Source of the DNA: Desulfatiglans anilini DSM 4660
GTDB lineage: Bacteria > Desulfobacterota > DSM-4660 > Desulfatiglandales > Desulfatiglandaceae
Assembly: GCF_000422285.1 (NCBI RefSeq)
Contig: NZ_AULM01000003.1
Coordinates: 1-64,000 of the forward strand
Direction: 5' to 3'
Length of the DNA: 64,000 nucleotides
Shown piece after piece: positions 7,888 through 57,329 of the stretch. A program made the translations under genes and the position numbers. Each line of letters opens with the position of its first letter. Position 1 is the stretch's first letter. Under the pieces are notes generated by a model, which had not been told where the DNA came from, made no database searches, and saw only the letters and a list, made by a program, of their open reading frames with translations.

Positions 7888-8832
7888 TCATGAATTTTCG
7901 AGCTCGTTTTTGCGCATCTTCCTGAAATCCATCCACTGATCGAAAAGGCCCAGGAGCGCCAGCAGCACCAGAAAAATCTGCTGCATGAAAATCAGGAAAT
8001 AGACCCCGGCCCTGGCCCATCCGGGAACCCGATAGCGATTCAAGAAAAAAAGAATAATAGACAATCCATGGAATAAATAAACGGCCATGGCGACGATCAG
8101 AACGTTGACCGCCAGCACAGCCAGCGGCCCAGAGCCCAAAAACGTGAGAAACCCCGATACGATGAGGGCCCAGACCAACTGTTCGGGCGCATGCCAACGG
8201 TCCAGTGGCGCCGTCCCGGGAAGATCGATCCGGCGCGCCTTGAGGAGCACCCGGCCGGCGATCATGTTGAGCCACACCACGACCCCCATTCCGATCACCA
8301 TCAAAGAAAAATAGATGCGCGCAAGCAGATCGAACAGGCTCTGCGAAAAGGCCTCCAACTCGCTTTCACCCAAAGCTGCAAGCCCCGCCGACTGGTAGGC
8401 CTCGATGCTCGCCTGCATCTGCGCCTCGAGATAGGCCAAAACCATCTCTCCGGGCCCCATGCCGCGCCGGGCCGCCAGGGCCACCAGCAGCGTGATCCCC
8501 AGGAGGGCCATCACGCCGGTCGTCAAAAAGATAACGCGCCCCGGGGCATAGCCCTTTTCCGTGAAAGCCGCCAGCATGAACCCGAGGGCGCCGAATTCCA
8601 CACCGAAAACCGCGATATGGGCCCCTCCCCCCAAATGCGCCGCCAAGGCGATCAAGGCAAGCACCAGCACCGTCAGTTTGAGACCCTGACGGAATCCGAG
8701 CTTGATGGAATAGTAAAAGAAGGGCAAGGGGGCCAGGAGGCTGAACAAAGGCCCGAACAGAGGAAGCCAGACCGGCATGGACAGCAAGAGACCGGCCCAC
8801 CCTGCGCACCCCAGTACGTCTATCGGCTTCAT
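7888..8832 (-). CDS. DUF2232 (YybS-like) multi-pass membrane protein
   Basis: A protein of about 314 residues with about eight hydrophobic segments and the arrangement of the DUF2232/YybS family, which sits between rpsR and rplI in many bacteria. The C-terminus is basic and hydrophilic (MRKNELENS). The molecular function of the family is not established; it resembles the membrane-embedded S components of transporters only loosely. The start at 8832 (MKPIDVLG) is tentative; the frame is open to 8859 and neither start has a good ribosome binding site. The gene follows rpsR by about 70 bp. Confidence 0.75.
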   Translation of the reverse strand: MKPIDVLGCAGWAGLLLSMPVWLPLFGPLFSLLAPLPFFYYSIKLGFRQGLKLTVLVLALIALAAHLGGGAHIAVFGVEFGALGFMLAAFTEKGYAPGRVIFLTTGVMALLGITLLVALAARRGMGPGEMVLAYLEAQMQASIEAYQSAGLAALGESELEAFSQSLFDLLARIYFSLMVIGMGVVVWLNMIAGRVLLKARRIDLPGTAPLDRWHAPEQLVWALIVSGFLTFLGSGPLAVLAVNVLIVAMAVYLFHGLSIILFFLNRYRVPGWARAGVYFLIFMQQIFLVLLALLGLFDQWMDFRKMRKNELENS

Positions 8833-8902
8833 GGGAACTCTGGCGTGTGGTTCCAACAACGTCGGCTTGCTCAGGCGACAGCCCCCGCTTCAGGCCTCTT
8901 CG

Positions 8903-9160
8903 TCAGCGCAGGGTTGACGTCGTGTAAGGCAGCAATGCTATATTTCGAGCCTGCTTGATCGCAACCGTCAGCATCCGCTGGTGTTTTGCACAGTTGCCCG
9001 AGATCCGGCGCGGCGTGATTTTTCCCCGTTCGGTGGTGAAATGTCTGAGGGTCTTGACGTCTTTATAATCGATGACAAGGCTGCTGTCGGCGCAAAACCG
9101 GCACACCTTCCTTCTGTGGAAGGTCCTCTTGAATCTTCCTCTCTCACGATTGAATGCCAT
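8903..9160 (-). CDS. rpsR: 30S ribosomal protein S18
   Basis: S18 forms a heterodimer with S6 on the platform of the 30S subunit. The 85-residue sequence has the family core [13 protein letters not shown] and the C-terminal [15 protein letters not shown]. It also has an N-terminal CRFC pair like zinc-type S18 proteins, so zinc binding is possible; whether all ligands are present was not checked. The start is 1 bp after the rpsF stop codon, with GGAGAGG in the end of rpsF as ribosome binding site, so translation is likely coupled. Confidence 0.96.
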
Positions 9161-9161
9161 G

Positions 9162-9554
9162 CTATTCCTCTCCTTCTCCTGATTCCTCTTCGGCTTCCGA
9201 TTTAGGTGTTTCCTGCGACTTCGTCCGGGCCTCCTCCGCCTGCCGCCTCAATGCCTCGGGATCCGCATCTTCGCCCAGCTTGACGGTCTGGTACTTCAGG
9301 ACACGGTCATCGAGCCGCATTTCGCGCTGTAATTCTTCCGGGACACGATTTTCCCCGCAGAATCGGAGCAGCACGAAACTCGCCTTGTCAAATTTCTTGA
9401 CATCATAAGCCAAAGGCCTTCGGCCCCAGTCCTGCACCTCGATCACCTCACCGCTGTGCCTGCCGACGATGTCGACGAACTTTTTGGAAACACTCTGGTA
9501 GTCTTCTTCCGCCAGATCCGGGTTAATCAGGTAGAGAGTCTCGTAATACCTCAT
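9162..9554 (-). CDS. rpsF: 30S ribosomal protein S6
   Basis: The first gene of the operon encodes S6, the partner of S18. It begins [14 protein letters not shown], typical of S6, and contains [21 protein letters not shown]-type core motifs. The C-terminal 30 residues are strongly acidic and Glu-rich, an extension common in the family. The ATG at 9554 is chosen because AAAGGAG lies about 10 bp upstream and the family begins here; an in-frame ATG at 9584 would add ten extra residues and bury the binding site. A structured leader and a good promoter precede it. Confidence 0.95.
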
Positions 9555-9599
9555 CCCAAACGGTCTCCTTTCGGACTTCCCCAAAAAGGGGGCATTTTG

Positions 9600-9645
9600 G
9601 TCCCCGCCTCAGGCCAGCTTACAGGCAGGCTGGCTTTGCAGGGAC
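9600..9645 (-). promoter_or_regulatory. Putative structured leader of rpsF mRNA
   Basis: The 5' untranslated region on the minus strand can fold into two stacked stems, an outer GTCCC/GGGAC and an inner GCCAGC/GCTGGC. Many bacteria have an S6:S18-binding leader upstream of rpsF that allows autoregulation. The position and two-stem form fit such a leader, but the diagnostic loop was not verified. Confidence 0.4.
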
Positions 9646-9668
9646 AAGGAGCAATTCAAAAATAGATA

Positions 9669-9697
9669 TTTATATAGGTGAAAGAGTCAGAAGTCAA
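9669..9697 (-). promoter_or_regulatory. Sigma-70-type promoter of the rpsF operon
   Basis: On the minus strand TTGACT (9692-9697) and TATAAA (9669-9674) are separated by exactly 17 bp, close to consensus. It lies about 115 bp upstream of rpsF. The -35 box is only three bases from the left terminal repeat of the interspersed element at 9701. Confidence 0.75.
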
Positions 9698-9700
9698 TTA

Positions 9701-9981
9701 GTTTCCGTCCGGAAATGGTCTTTTTGCCCAATCTCGGCGTCAATCTGCGCGTTTGTTTGGGCGGCGACCTGTAGGCTGCCTCCGCGCAAACGCTTGATTT
9801 CCTTGATATTGGTCAAACCGGGACCCGCCGCGAAGCGGTGGGACTGAGCACCCGAAGGGTGTGAAGAAACCGGGACCCGCCCCGAAGCGGTGGGACTGAG
9901 CACGCGCAGCGTGTAGAGAAAAATTCTCATTTCCGGCCTGGAAACTATTGCGCTTTCAAAGTTTTATTTCCGGACGGACAC
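9701..9981 (+). repeat. Interspersed palindromic element, copy A (full length, two modules)
   Basis: This is the best reference copy. The left end GTTTCCGTCCGGAAAT and right end ATTTCCGGACGGACAC form a terminal inverted repeat with 15 of 16 positions matching. Inside is a palindromic core with outer arms GCGTTTG/CAAACGC around GGCGACCT....AGG. Two tandem 52-bp modules follow (about 9816-9919), each with a CCGC..GCGG hairpin and a CACCC-GAA-GGGTG hairpin (CACGC-GCA-GCGTG in the second). It fills the space between cbpM and the rpsF promoter. No protein-coding frame is conserved among the copies. Confidence 0.85.
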
Positions 9982-12036: not shown

Positions 12037-13293
12037 ATGGTTGCCTTTCATTCCATCGACTGGATCTTTCTCTGCGGCGCCTTGTTGGCCGGTTTCTTCC
12101 TTGGCTTAGGCACGGCCGCCGCGATCAAGACGTTCAGGCTCAAATCCGCCCGAGCCATTGCAGAAGAGATATACCGTGAAAACGAAATGCTCCGCCGGGA
12201 AGGGCAGGAAACCCTCCTTTCGCAGATTGAAAGCGCCTTCGCCCGGCTTTCGGTGGACGCGCTCGAGCACTCGACCCATGCATTCCTGAATCTCGCCGAT
12301 GCCCGGTTCAAGGAAGAGAGGACGCTGAGCGGCAGCGAACTCGAGGCGAAAAAGGGCCTGATCGATGTCCAAATCAGCCGGATGTGCGGCGAACTCGACA
12401 AGATCACGGAGCTGATCCGGGCATTGGAGCAGGAACGGCATCAAAGCTACGGTGCGCTCGACAGCCGTTTGAAATCCTCCCAGGAGCAGATGCGTGATCT
12501 TCTCGAAACGACTCGCGCTCTGCGGGAGGCCCTGGCCAACAACAAAGCCAGGGGCCAGTGGGGAGAAAGAATGGCCGAAGACGTCCTGCGGTCATGTGGC
12601 TTAAAAGAAAACATCAATTATTACAAGCAGAAATCGAAAGCGGGCGGCGGATCGCGACCCGATTTCACCTTTCTCCTGCCCCAGGGCCGCCGTTTGAACA
12701 TGGATGTAAAGTTCCCGCTGAGCAATTACCTCAAGACCCTGGAAGCCGCCTCCGACCTGGAAAAGAATCTGCGCCAGAAAGATTTTCTGAAAGACGTCCG
12801 CGCCAGGATCAGGGAGGTCACGACACGGGACTATATCGACCCTGAACAGCACACTCTCAACTATGTCCTGTTGTTCATTCCCAACGAACATATCTATGCA
12901 CTGATCCACGAACAGGATCCGGAACTGATCGAAGAGGCCATGAGAAGCAATGTCATCCTTTGCTCGCCGCTGACCTTGTTTGCGGTCCTGGCCGTCATCC
13001 GCCAAGCCGTCGAGCAGTTCACCCTGGAGAAGACGACTGCGGAAATTCTGACGCTGATGAGCACCTTCAAGCAGCAGTGGGAGCTGTTCTGTGAAAAAAT
13101 GAGCCTCCTCGGCCGCCGCATCAACGAAAGCCAGAAGGAATTCGAGGCGTTGACGACGACCCGGCGCCGGCGCCTCGACCGATCCCTCGATCGCATCGAG
13201 ACCCTGCGCGCCGGATATCTGGAAAAAAGCGCGGCGCCCCACGAAATCGAATCCTTTGCAGACTCGCAAGACCGGTCCGAACAGCCTGGCTAG
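12037..13293 (+). CDS. rmuC: DNA recombination protein RmuC
   Basis: RmuC-family proteins limit DNA inversions and are built like structure-specific nucleases on a membrane-anchored coiled coil. The N-terminus has one hydrophobic segment (about residues 8-28), followed by a long coiled coil (40-165). The conserved core has RGQWGERMAEDVLR (about 176-189) and PDFTFLLPQG....DVKFPL (about 207-230). The C-terminus is again helical and charged. The length of 418 residues is typical. The ATG at 12037 has no strong ribosome binding site. It appears to be transcribed alone. Confidence 0.93.
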   Translation: MVAFHSIDWIFLCGALLAGFFLGLGTAAAIKTFRLKSARAIAEEIYRENEMLRREGQETLLSQIESAFARLSVDALEHSTHAFLNLADARFKEERTLSGSELEAKKGLIDVQISRMCGELDKITELIRALEQERHQSYGALDSRLKSSQEQMRDLLETTRALREALANNKARGQWGERMAEDVLRSCGLKENINYYKQKSKAGGGSRPDFTFLLPQGRRLNMDVKFPLSNYLKTLEAASDLEKNLRQKDFLKDVRARIREVTTRDYIDPEQHTLNYVLLFIPNEHIYALIHEQDPELIEEAMRSNVILCSPLTLFAVLAVIRQAVEQFTLEKTTAEILTLMSTFKQQWELFCEKMSLLGRRINESQKEFEALTTTRRRRLDRSLDRIETLRAGYLEKSAAPHEIESFADSQDRSEQPG

Positions 13294-13528
13294 AAAATTT
13301 ATGGGCAAAGAGGGGAAGCTGGGTTGCACCGGAAAAGCCCTTCCGCATGGAAACCAAGTCGAAAAATCGTGGCACAAAAACGCCGCAGTGACGGGGGATG
13401 AGCCAAAGGCGGCAGGGATATGTTTTTCAGCAATCGATTTTTTCTTCGAGTGAAATAGCTCTTACTGCTTGACTCTCATAATTATTCCTGTAAAGAAATA
13501 GCATTTCTCACAGATGACAGGGGGCGTG

Positions 13529-52667: not shown

Positions 52668-53819
52668 TCACAGGGCGCCGATCAGCCTCGCGATGACGAT
52701 CCGCTGAACCTCCGAGGTCCCCTCCCCGATCTCGAGGAGCTTCTGATCCCGATAAAAGCGCTCGATATCGTACTCCTTCATCAGCCCGTAGCCCCCATGC
52801 AGCTGCACGGCATGGTTGGCGGCCCGGTACATGACCTCGGAGCAGTAAAGCTTTGCCATCGCCGCCACCTTCGAGAATGGCTGATTGTTGTCTCTAAGCC
52901 AGCAGGCCTTGTAGAGCAGGAGCCGAGCGCACTCGATCTCCAGGGCCATATCCGCCAGCTTGAAGGAATTGACCTGGAAATTGGCGATCGGTTTGCCGAA
53001 CTGAACCCTTTCTTTGCTGTATTTCAGGGCCATCTCGAAACAGCCCTGCGCCCCCCCGAGCCCCATCGCCCCGATGGAAAGCCTCCCACCGTCAAGGGTC
53101 TGCATCATCTGATAGAAGCCGTGGCCGCGCGGTCCCAGGCGATTCTCCTCAGGGACCCGGCAGTCGTCGAAATAGAGCTCGCTCGTGTTGGAGGCGCGCC
53201 ACATGAGCTTCCCATGCATCTCGCGGGTCTCGTAGCCCGGGGTTCCCTGCTCCACCAGGATGCAGGAGAGTTCGGGCCGGCCGTCTTCCCGGGTGCCGGT
53301 GCGGCAGAGGACCGTAGCGCCGGCGCTGATGCGGGTCGACGCATTGGTGATGAAGATCTTGCTGCCGTTGATGACCCACGAGTCGCCGTCGAGCACCGCG
53401 TTGGTCCGAGAGTTGCTCGCATCCGAACCGGCATTCGGCTCCGTCAGCCCGAAGCCCCACAGGGCCTCGCCCGAGCAGAGCCGGGGGAGGTGTTTCCGCT
53501 TCTGCTCCTCGCTGCCGAAGTAATAGAGCGGCCCGATCCCGAGCGAATTCCCGGCTGCCACGGTGGCCGCATGGGAGCCGTCGACACGCGCCATCTCTTC
53601 GGTGGCGATGATATAGGAGAGGTAATCCATGCCCTGGCCGCCGTACTCTTCCGCGACGAACATCCCGAAGAGCCCGATCTCGGCCATCTTGGACATGGTC
53701 TCGTAGGAGAACTCCTCCCTTTCGTCCAGTTCCCTCGCTACCGGCTTGATCTCCTTTTCGGCAAAATCCCTGACAGACTTGCGCAGGATCTCCTGATCCA
53801 TGGAAAGACTGAAATCCAT
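52668..53819 (-). CDS. Acyl-CoA dehydrogenase
   Basis: An FAD enzyme of 383 residues. It has the N-terminal helical part, the FGLTEPNAGSDASN middle motif, WRASNTSELYFDDCRVP, and the C-terminal YRDQKLLEIGEGTSEVQR with the glutamate of EGTSE as predicted catalytic base, as in short-chain types. The ATG at 53819 has GGAGGG about 5 bp upstream. It may oxidise an aromatic or branched acyl-CoA given the thiolase/DUF35 pair next door, but specificity is not visible. No electron-transfer flavoprotein genes are present. Confidence 0.93.
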   Translation of the reverse strand: MDFSLSMDQEILRKSVRDFAEKEIKPVARELDEREEFSYETMSKMAEIGLFGMFVAEEYGGQGMDYLSYIIATEEMARVDGSHAATVAAGNSLGIGPLYYFGSEEQKRKHLPRLCSGEALWGFGLTEPNAGSDASNSRTNAVLDGDSWVINGSKIFITNASTRISAGATVLCRTGTREDGRPELSCILVEQGTPGYETREMHGKLMWRASNTSELYFDDCRVPEENRLGPRGHGFYQMMQTLDGGRLSIGAMGLGGAQGCFEMALKYSKERVQFGKPIANFQVNSFKLADMALEIECARLLLYKACWLRDNNQPFSKVAAMAKLYCSEVMYRAANHAVQLHGGYGLMKEYDIERFYRDQKLLEIGEGTSEVQRIVIARLIGAL

Positions 53820-54290: not shown

Positions 54291-54833
54291 ATGAACCTTG
54301 GCACCCTGATCCGCCGCCATCGAAAAGAGCAGAAGCTGACCCTCAAGGCCTTGGCCCACAAAGCCGGCATCTCCGAGGGGTTTCTGAGCCAGGTCGAAAA
54401 CAGCGTGCACTCCCCCTCCGTCGATACACTCGTCAGCCTGTGCCGGGCGTTGGGGGTCAACGCCGGCGATCTGTTGAACCAGGTGGAAGAGCAGGAAAGG
54501 CTGACCGTCATTCGCAAGGACCAGTGGGACGAACAAGAACTCCCGCACAGTGGCTTCGTCACGAGGCGCTTTTTCGCGCCGGAAAACCGCACCGTCATCG
54601 ACTGCGCCGTCCTGATTCTCGACCCCAAGGCCTCCATTCCGGCAAGGAAAAACATCCGCAACGGACAGGAGGTCCTCTGCATTCTGAAAGGGTCGCTGGA
54701 ACTCTTGCATGGAGACCAAACCCTTCAGCTCCACGAAGGGGACTCCGTTCAATTCTGGACGGACAGCGGCAGCCAGCGCATCGCCAACACCAGCGGCGCC
54801 GCTGCCGTCGCCCTGTGGGTAGGGACAATTTAA
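54291..54833 (+). CDS. XRE-family transcriptional regulator with cupin domain
   Basis: A 180-residue protein. The helix-turn-helix (about residues 8-62) has LTLKALAHKAGISEGFLSQVE and SVDTLVSLCRALGV, followed by a C-terminal cupin (about 105-178) that resembles small-ligand sensor domains. Regulators of this type (SutR/PuuR-like) control neighbouring catabolic genes. It diverges from the acyl-CoA dehydrogenase and lies before the thiolase-fold/DUF35 genes, so these are its likely targets. The stop codon TAA at 54831 adjoins repeat copy G directly. Confidence 0.88.
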   Translation: MNLGTLIRRHRKEQKLTLKALAHKAGISEGFLSQVENSVHSPSVDTLVSLCRALGVNAGDLLNQVEEQERLTVIRKDQWDEQELPHSGFVTRRFFAPENRTVIDCAVLILDPKASIPARKNIRNGQEVLCILKGSLELLHGDQTLQLHEGDSVQFWTDSGSQRIANTSGAAAVALWVGTI

Positions 54834-55153
54834 TGCATCTGGAAATGGTTTTTTCGGCCCACCTCGGCGTCAATCTTCACGTCTGCTTGTGCGGCAGCCT
54901 ACAGGCCGCCTCCGCGCAAACGCCAGATCGCCTTGATATTGCCGGGTTGGAAACTGGGTTCTGCCGGAAAGGAAGTCCTTCCCGGATGGGGACGATCCGA
55001 TTCGCAGAAGTGGGAATGAGCACCGGAAGGGTGCGAGGAAACTGGGACCCGCCGCGAAGTGGTGGGATTGAGCACCGGAAGGGCATGAAGAAAAGATCCT
55101 TATTTCCGGATTGGAAGCTGCGTTGTACCGGAAGATCATCTCCGGATGGATAT
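54834..55153 (+). repeat. Interspersed palindromic element, copy G (longest, two modules)
   Basis: The left end (GCATCTGGAAATGG) is decayed and the right end ATCTCCGGATGGATAT recognisable. The core GCGGCAGCCTACAGGCCGCC and CGCAAACGCC is intact. Two modules (about 55008-55100) show CACCG-GAA-GGGTG-type hairpins and a CCGC..GTGG hairpin. Extra inner end-like sequences (TTGGAAACTGGGTT) suggest a composite history. It fills the gap between the regulator and the thiolase-fold gene. Confidence 0.8.
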
Positions 55154-55276
55154 CAGGGAACAAGGGGAAGGGGAAAAGTCTGCCTGCCCGCTTGCTTGTG
55201 AAAACGTTCTTTTATTGGACTGCACGCGGCCCGATGAGAGCGCCGCCGTGCCTTGGGAGAGAAAGGAGGACGGAAC

Positions 55277-56713
55277 TTGATTACCTTCAGCGACAGACAA
55301 TTGAAGACACCGAAGCTTATGAGGCCCGTTTACCTCGTCACCGCCGGGCAGTCGAAATTCGACCGCGCCATCCCCGAAAAGCGGACCGAAGAGCTCTGTA
55401 TCGACGCCTTGGCGATGGCCGCCCGCCTCATCGACAAGACCCCGGCCGAGCTGAAACGCTACATTCACAGCTGCTACTACGGCCATTTTGCGGACCACTT
55501 CGGCGACCAGCTCCTCGGCGAGGCCGTCATCCATGACCGCCTCGGCCTGGACCCGCTCGGCAACATCGGCATCAAGACCGGCGGCGCCACCGGCGGGTCG
55601 ACCCTCTGGGAGGCGGTGAAGGCCGTCGCCTCCGGGTATTCGGACTGCGTGCTCGCCATGGGCTGGGAGCGCATGGACGAGGTCCCGACGGATGAAGGGA
55701 ACCACCTGATCTCCTGCGCCGCCGACAAGGACTGGGAAACGCCGCTGGGTCACATCTACACCGGTTATTACGCCGTCATGGCCCAGAAGTACTGGCAGGT
55801 CTTCGGCCGCGAGGAGGAGTCCTTCCGCCGCACGCTGGCGGAGATCTCCGTCAAGCACCACGGCTACGCCCGGTTCAATCCGTTCGCCCAGGCGCCGATG
55901 AAGATCACCGTCGAGGACGTCCTCAAGTCCCCCGTGGTAGCCTACCCGCTGCGGGCCTTGGACTGCTGCCTCATGAGCGTCGGGGCCGCCTGCGCCATCA
56001 TCTGCGACGAGGACACCGCCATGGAGCTGACGAAGGGCACCAAGAACAAGCCCCTCCGGATCTGGGTCGCCGCCGGGAGCCACACCCTGCGGCCCGCCTG
56101 CCGGCGCCACATGGAGATCCCGCTCCTCCCGCACGAGAAGGCCGACCAGTATGCCGACCTCGGCGAACGGTTCCCCGGCGGAGAGCGCTATCCGGGCTTC
56201 ACCGGCTTTTTGGGCGCCCGCATGTGCACCTACTACGGCTACAGGATGGCCGGCATCCACAACCCCATGGATGACCTGGACGTGATCGAGCTTCACGACG
56301 CCTTCACCATCAGCGATGTCCAATCCTACGAAGACGTTGGCCTCCGGCCTTACGGCGAGGGGCGCGACTACGTGGAATCGGGCGACTGCTACCACACCAA
56401 CCCCCACACCGGCAAGCCCGGCCGTCTGCCATCGAACCTCTCCGGCGGCCTGATCGGCTGCATGCACGCGGTGGGTGCCACCGGCATCATGCAGACCTTC
56501 GAGATCGCGCTGCATCTCTGGAACCGCTGGGCGGAGCTCCACGGCGATCCGGACATCTGGAAGGCCTTCAACCGCAAGAAGCCCGATGACTGGCAGGATC
56601 TCCAGGTGAAGGGCGCCAAGCGCGGCATGGCCATCAGCCACGCCGGGGTCGGTTCGCATGTCACCGCCACCATCCTGATGGACCCGGACCATCTCCTGAA
56701 ACCCGATGCCTGA
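55277..56713 (+). CDS. Thiolase-fold protein (SCP2-thiolase-like), nucleophilic Cys replaced
   Basis: The 478-residue protein has the thiolase fold: GWERMDE after the active-site helix, the LRALDCCLMSVGAACAI segment, HDAFTISDV and GGLIGCMHAVGATG with the catalytic His of the GHP loop. At the nucleophile position the family has ACATGSAAL, and here it reads GGATGGSTL, so the Cys is Gly103 and the normal acyl-transfer chemistry is unlikely. The start is TTG at 55277, with AAAGGAGG 7 bp upstream. The next gene encodes a DUF35 partner. Similar pairs are BbsA/BbsB and Ltp2/ChsH2; in the latter the thiolase-fold protein is an aldolase without the Cys. Confidence 0.85.
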   Translation: MITFSDRQLKTPKLMRPVYLVTAGQSKFDRAIPEKRTEELCIDALAMAARLIDKTPAELKRYIHSCYYGHFADHFGDQLLGEAVIHDRLGLDPLGNIGIKTGGATGGSTLWEAVKAVASGYSDCVLAMGWERMDEVPTDEGNHLISCAADKDWETPLGHIYTGYYAVMAQKYWQVFGREEESFRRTLAEISVKHHGYARFNPFAQAPMKITVEDVLKSPVVAYPLRALDCCLMSVGAACAIICDEDTAMELTKGTKNKPLRIWVAAGSHTLRPACRRHMEIPLLPHEKADQYADLGERFPGGERYPGFTGFLGARMCTYYGYRMAGIHNPMDDLDVIELHDAFTISDVQSYEDVGLRPYGEGRDYVESGDCYHTNPHTGKPGRLPSNLSGGLIGCMHAVGATGIMQTFEIALHLWNRWAELHGDPDIWKAFNRKKPDDWQDLQVKGAKRGMAISHAGVGSHVTATILMDPDHLLKPDA

Positions 56714-56735
56714 TGAATGAGAGGAGGACACCTCG

Positions 56736-57329
56736 ATGAGCATATTTGGAACCGTCGTTGTCAAAAGGGGGCAATACAAGATCAAGGGGGACTTCCACAC
56801 CATCACCCCCAACATGCCGATCCGCAGCGAGGACGAGAAGTGGCATCTCGTCGGCGTCACGAACCCGAGATGCATGACCTATATCCACACCTACGGCGGC
56901 GAGGCCGTCTTTTTCGAAAACCTGTCCAAAGGCAGGATCCACGGCAGCCGCTGCGACAACCCGGACTGCGAGTTCCCGGGCACCGTCTACCTGCCGTTCC
57001 GGATCCACTGCCCGGACTGTCTGCAGCGCAGCACGGTCGTGGATCTGACCGAAGTCTGCAAGACGACCGCCACCATCCACACCTTCATGGTCTGCGAGCG
57101 GTCCGGGGCCTTCAACACCCTCGACAAGCCGATCAAGTTCATCAACGTCGAGTTCGAGGGCGTCTCGACGATCCTCATGAGCTACCTTTCGGTCGGCGAC
57201 CCGAAGATCGGCATGCGCGTCGTCCCGATCTTCCAGACCCTGGAGCCGACTTACACCATCACGGACCTGTCCTGGGTCCCGGAAGGCACCCCTTCCTCCA
57301 AGCTGCCTAAGGGATTCACCTTCGGCTAA
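56736..57329 (+). CDS. DUF35 (zinc-ribbon and OB-fold) partner protein
   Basis: A 197-residue protein. A zinc-ribbon has CDNPDC and CPDC (about residues 72-96), followed by an OB-fold (about 100-180). DUF35 proteins bind thiolase-fold enzymes and bring in acyl-CoA; in archaea they bridge thiolase and HMG-CoA synthase, and in Ltp2/ChsH2 and BbsA/BbsB they form complexes with thiolase-like proteins. The spacing to the thiolase-fold gene is 22 bp, so they form one operon. It is longer than the usual 130-150 residues because of an N-terminal extension. Confidence 0.82.
   Translation: MSIFGTVVVKRGQYKIKGDFHTITPNMPIRSEDEKWHLVGVTNPRCMTYIHTYGGEAVFFENLSKGRIHGSRCDNPDCEFPGTVYLPFRIHCPDCLQRSTVVDLTEVCKTTATIHTFMVCERSGAFNTLDKPIKFINVEFEGVSTILMSYLSVGDPKIGMRVVPIFQTLEPTYTITDLSWVPEGTPSSKLPKGFTFG

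Follow-up and report, generated by a model that had tools for sequence, protein, structure and literature searches.

A thiolase-fold protein without the nucleophilic cysteine and its DUF35 partner in Desulfatiglans anilini: a candidate carbon-carbon lyase of acyl-CoA catabolism

The window analysed here is a stretch of 64,000 nucleotides from Desulfatiglans anilini DSM 4660 (contig NZ_AULM01000003.1, positions 1 to 64,000). It contains a module of a regulator, a thiolase-like/DUF35 gene pair and an acyl-CoA dehydrogenase. The thiolase-like gene (55277..56713, + strand) encodes a Cys-less thiolase-fold protein of 478 aa and is directly followed by the gene of the DUF35 partner (56736..57329, + strand; 197 aa). 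The XRE-cupin regulator (54291..54833, + strand) has HTH_3 and Cupin_2 domains, and the dehydrogenase, of short-chain/butyryl-CoA type (52668..53819, - strand), is divergently transcribed. No hydratase, ligase or aldehyde oxidoreductase gene was found in the window's own module. The 443 bp gap between the regulator and the thiolase-like gene (54834-55276) holds two 48-nt direct repeats, 75% alike and 52 bases apart, with GAGCACCGGAAGGG, together with a 23-nt repeat in three copies; these repeats are possible operator sites. The only Rfam match in the window was a tRNA at 1717-1800.

The thiolase-like gene starts with TTG at 55277, with GGAGG upstream, and the match to NCBIfam PRK06365 (NF004982) begins exactly there. 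This model was passed from an inner ATG (703.7 bits against a cut-off of 695) and reached 718.6 bits from 55277, over positions 1-430. PRK06365 is an already catalogued family, named 'thiolase domain-containing protein' with no function attached, and our literature search found neither a description nor an assayed member of the family of this Cys-less protein. In Pfam, Thiolase_C_1 scored above its cut-off (63.6 bits) and Thiolase_N below threshold (25.6 against 26.4). The predicted structure (64 sequences; mean pLDDT 75, pTM 0.85) has low confidence at 133-179, near 342-345 and at 391-396, and matches 7yvy with Z 37.0 and rmsd 2.8 over 356 residues, which identifies a thiolase fold. Further fold matches were 6esq (Z 36.0), BbsB (35.7), Ltp2 (33.2) and Sal (31.7). 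The archaeal thiolases 7yvy and 6esq are also the closest PDB sequences (118.7 and 111.9 bits), and 6esq is the thiolase of a DUF35 HMG-CoA synthase complex; unlike the window protein, both have the Cys. The benzoylsuccinyl-CoA thiolase BbsAB (7pxp) shares with our pair the HDAF motif, the GG..GH..GA loop, the DUF35 subunit and the fold, but BbsB keeps its nucleophilic Cys, and the window protein reached only 112.3 bits against the NCBIfam BbsB cut-off of 750.

The window protein has KTGGATGGSTL as its active-site segment. In HMMER alignments the nucleophilic Cys of 7yvy, 6esq, 6hsj and 7pxp all fell on Gly103 (codon 55583..55585, + strand), as the first-pass annotation had read from GGATGGSTL, and Gly was present in 81/81 sequences (the window protein and the best 80 of 330 relatives), so that the N-terminal active-site loop lacks the Cys expected of a catalytic thiolase. 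The same annotation had described HDAF and MHAVGATG as retained, and its motifs and numbering proved correct: H340-D-A-F occurs in 81/81 and H397 in 80/81 of these sequences. His340 (codon 56294..56296, + strand) stands opposite the Tyr of YDHF in Ltp2 (6ok1) and of YDCY in Sal (9myr). His397 (codon 56465..56467, + strand) is the His of the thiolase GHP motif. When a plasmid relative was aligned to 9myr and 6ok1, the catalytic Tyr of Sal and Ltp2 matched the first HDAF position, and Gln352 of Sal and Tyr344 of Ltp2 matched the GHP His position of thiolases. Since these positions are His340 and His397 here, the Cys-to-Gly change is common with steroid aldolases, and both thiolase histidines are kept. 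Hence, of the catalytic Tyr or His suggested earlier, the Tyr is missing, with His340 instead, and His is present twice, each copy conserved. Sampled subfamilies likewise had Gly at the Cys position and His at the other two, except one protein of locus L029.

A cryptic thiolase working with another nucleophile might be considered, because the 81 sequences share C124, C231 and C239 without exception and almost all have C371, which belongs to an insertion peculiar to the family, ahead of the GG-His loop. However, no other Cys came to lie on the nucleophile position, whether HMMER, MAFFT or hhalign was used, although a Cys placed there had been named beforehand as what would undo the Cys-less reading; C124 and C239 are in predicted strands; and conventional thiolases occur in the same operons. 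Loci L051, L121 and L128 encode a conventional thiolase besides the Cys-less protein, which is therefore no replacement for it. We regard a hidden nucleophile as very improbable.

Pairing with DUF35, also proposed from the letters, is well founded. The gene of the partner comes next in 70 of 78 loci among the best 80 of 330 relatives, and Cys73, 78, 92 and 95 are invariant in 73 sequences. Pfam gave no family for it at E 0.001, zf-ChsH2 and OB_ChsH2_C included, and phmmer matched it to 3irb, a DUF35 protein, at E 1.9e-5. Its model (pLDDT 86) matched 9myr_B, the DUF35 protein of Sal-Shy, with Z 12.2 over 127 residues, tied first with 3irb (12.2), followed by 6htj (11.7), 6ok1_B (10.7) and then the DUF35 partners of 6esq, 5m3k and 7pxp; all matches with Z of at least 8 were DUF35-type proteins. 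The invariant cysteines and the fold match of the model thus indicate a four-Cys zinc ribbon with an OB fold. An extra N-terminal region of about 50 residues is almost unmatched among the fold matches.

Comparison with the steroid side-chain aldolases CtSal/CtShy (9myr) and TcLtp2/ChsH2 (6ok1) shows both likeness and difference. The thiolase fold, the Gly at the Cys position and a similar predicted DUF35 fold are shared. In contrast, the known enzymes use the Tyr of YDHF or YDCY together with Tyr344 (Ltp2) or Cys304 (Sal), where the window protein has His340 and, at the second catalytic positions, His397 and Ala342. No steroid genes were seen here. In a tree for which the PDB chains were copied from HMMER outputs, the window protein falls in its own 21-row clade (99/96), and Ltp2, Sal and 4u4e lie on another side (100/100). 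The label 'Ltp2-type' of the first-pass annotation therefore falls, on active-site residues (His for Tyr, and His again at the second catalytic position) and on the separate clade. Independent loss of the Cys seemed proven only when L008_x was left out of the group; with L008_x included, the two Cys-less groups lie on one side of a weak split (76/64), compatible with either one or two losses.

A scan of GTDB genome contigs gave 330 relatives, of which the best 80, 76-90% identical to the window protein, were kept. By the names of their records they come from some ten phyla as well as Lokiarchaeota, among them Desulfobacterota, Spirochaetes, Actinobacteria, Krumholzibacteria, Marinimicrobia, Latescibacterota, Aminicenantes, Phycisphaerae, a Myxococcales bin and a Lokiarchaeon; as most of these records are metagenome bins, single placements may be wrong. 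Most genomes of the window's phylum lack the family, which was detected in 17/247 at E 1e-150, 4 of them over the cut-off. Plasmid relatives were all <60% identical, and the DUF35 protein had no match in viral contigs. Such high identity between distant phyla could reflect either strong constraint or gene transfer. Judged from the aligned sequences, loss of the Cys extends beyond this protein and marks the widespread family PRK06365.

Selection on the thiolase-like gene bears on whether the protein is a non-catalytic scaffold or regulatory pseudoenzyme, for which loss of the nucleophile speaks. Between the window and locus L037, dN was 0.065 and dS 0.82, strong purifying selection that excludes chance; more widely, dN was 0.065-0.18 where dS was near or beyond saturation. 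Moreover, some 53% of positions show conservation of 97% or more among the 81 sequences, and both histidines and the motif glycines are kept. With dN so far below dS and such conservation, a pseudoenzyme seems to us the least credible of the readings, and an exceedingly improbable one.

The small catabolic module suggested earlier from the dehydrogenase and the XRE-cupin regulator consists of real genes, and its arrangement recurs. Among the best 80 of 330 relatives, the regulator gene immediately precedes the thiolase-like gene in 34 of 76 loci, and an acyl-CoA dehydrogenase of the same sequence cluster as the window's occurs in 52 of 80, with a peak two genes downstream (23/75). These counts are controlled internally: the genes are enriched at fixed positions, and farther positions have zero or few of them. 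Acetoacetate-CoA ligase-type and FadD-type ligases stand two or three genes downstream in relatives' loci. In some relatives, enoyl-CoA hydratase lies beside the pair in L053, L112, L113-L115 and the L051 operon, and a MaoC hydratase in L029; aldehyde:ferredoxin oxidoreductase (AOR) is directly downstream in L082 and L084, nearby in L029 and 5 kb off in L124. Such hydratase or AOR adjacency is found in a minority of loci only. CoA-transferase accompanies the pair in L084, L102, L107 and a 40% subfamily, CoA ligases in some relatives, and a Liv-type transporter in L085. Hydratase, AOR and CoA ligase or CoA-transferase are the enzymes that an aldolytic route would call for.

Several loci have further peculiarities. 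L029 encodes two different Cys-less thiolase-like proteins (8651-9931 and 12136-13332) in one operon with ACAD, DUF35, MaoC, 3HCDH and AOR, and one of the two lacks HDAF (LLGPYT). L020, L022 and L023 carry another Cys-less thiolase-like lineage (SGST, YDPF, GEGNP) beside a second thiolase-like ORF. In L048 (2242-3927) and L080 (11270-12951), a protein of 385-403 aa with no Pfam match and then an SNase-like protein come directly after DUF35, and in L087, L093, L100 and L101, whose records are titled Actinobacteria, the first or second gene after DUF35 encodes a threonine-dehydratase-like PLP enzyme.

Taken with the known chemistry, the module points to a Cys-independent C-C lyase, a retro-aldolase acting on 3-hydroxyacyl-CoA in the catabolism of short or branched acyl-CoA, to which we give a probability of roughly 45%. 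Without Cys there is no cysteine acyl-enzyme, and thiolysis is therefore unlikely. Sal and Ltp2, the assayed Cys-less relatives bound to DUF35, are retro-aldolases, and retro-aldol cleavage is the best-known alternative for a Cys-less thiolase fold with DUF35 (PMC12329534, PMC11321319). We propose that the two proteins, one a thiolase-fold subunit and the other a zinc-ribbon/OB DUF35 subunit, would assemble into an alpha/beta complex, in which a C-C bond next to the CoA thioester would be made or broken without a cysteine acyl-enzyme. The most likely step would be retro-aldol cleavage of 3-hydroxyacyl-CoA, with a shorter acyl-CoA and either an aldehyde or a ketone as products, or the same reaction run backwards. 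His340 and His397 may serve as the acid/base pair in place of Tyr/Tyr (Ltp2) or Tyr/Cys (Sal), and Gly103 may make room for the 3-hydroxyl, a role already suggested for its counterpart in Sal. The neighbouring dehydrogenase would supply enoyl-CoA, and a hydratase encoded elsewhere in the genome would convert it to 3-hydroxyacyl-CoA. Against this retro-aldolase stands the Tyr, essential in Ltp2 and Sal, which by alignment is missing here, and so do the lack of hydratase and aldehyde oxidoreductase genes in the window's module and their adjacency to the pair in only a minority of loci; the model also leaves the B12 acyl-CoA mutase and threonine-dehydratase-like genes beside the pair in some relatives without explanation.

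Those mutase genes favour instead the synthetic direction, in which acyl-CoA and a carbonyl compound would be condensed, by aldol or Cys-independent Claisen-type chemistry, to a branched acyl-CoA that a B12 mutase would then rearrange; such a route might serve the assimilation of propionate or ketones. Distant subfamilies adjoin a B12 acyl-CoA mutase with a Phe/Gln pair, which we take to mark isobutyryl-type enzymes, along with its small subunit, MeaB or CobO, and CoA-transferase, and Smithella genomes have the pair with CoA-transferase. But no mutase adjoins the pair in the window or in the best 80 of 330 relatives, and neighbours such as acyl-CoA dehydrogenase, ligase and transferase usually belong to catabolic pathways. 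A synthetic role is unlikely. The retained His pair resembles that of decarboxylating thiolase-fold enzymes, which would suit a Cys-independent decarboxylase or beta-keto acid hydrolase. Earlier work, as cited in PMC12329534, has the Cys-less T. brucei SLP slowly decarboxylating malonyl-CoA, but Sal did not decarboxylate malonyl-CoA (PMC12329534), and no carboxylase partner recurs in the module; we consider such an enzyme rather improbable.

As to the substrate of the putative retro-aldolase, its size is suggested only by the short-chain type of the dehydrogenase. Best PDB matches of the latter were 7szv (391 bits) and 5ol2 (384), against 251 for the isobutyryl type and 227-248 for the isovaleryl type, and an isovaleryl-CoA route was rejected, the dehydrogenase being closer to short-chain/butyryl types. 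Cleavage of HMG-CoA is hinted at by the acetoacetate-CoA ligase neighbour, and no supporting gene was found nearby. The genome of the window carries three genes like that of the acetone carboxylase gamma subunit (G000:C1:364925, C1:373681 and C13:65584), besides two acetoacetate-CoA ligases, and the gamma subunit is also encoded in its genus mate; as it was found in 0/9 other pair-bearing genomes, acetone as a general product was not adopted.

On the Sal pathway, oxidation of the aldehyde product is followed by re-esterification with CoA (PMC11321319), and by analogy the AOR and CoA ligase neighbours appear to match this pattern. One can imagine, as an improbable extension of the retro-aldolase, an aldolytic variant of beta-oxidation widespread in anaerobes. 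The Gly/His/His lyase with DUF35 would yield acyl-CoA and aldehyde, AOR would oxidise the aldehyde with a gain of low-potential ferredoxin, and the acid would be re-activated by CoA ligase or CoA-transferase. If true, this variant would bypass 3-hydroxyacyl-CoA dehydrogenase and thiolase for chains unable to use them.

The Cys-less thiolase-fold lyases of tested function that we found in the literature are steroid aldolases. The present protein belongs to a distinct and highly conserved lineage, which has another pair of candidate catalytic residues and is found in many bacterial phyla, mostly of anaerobes, and in Asgard archaea, and so far labelled only 'thiolase'. Close homologues in the cultured strains Desulfopila aestuarii and Desulforhopalus singaporensis make the family open to testing. 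If the protein is a lyase, many anaerobic genomes would hold a step of acyl-CoA metabolism that has been misread.
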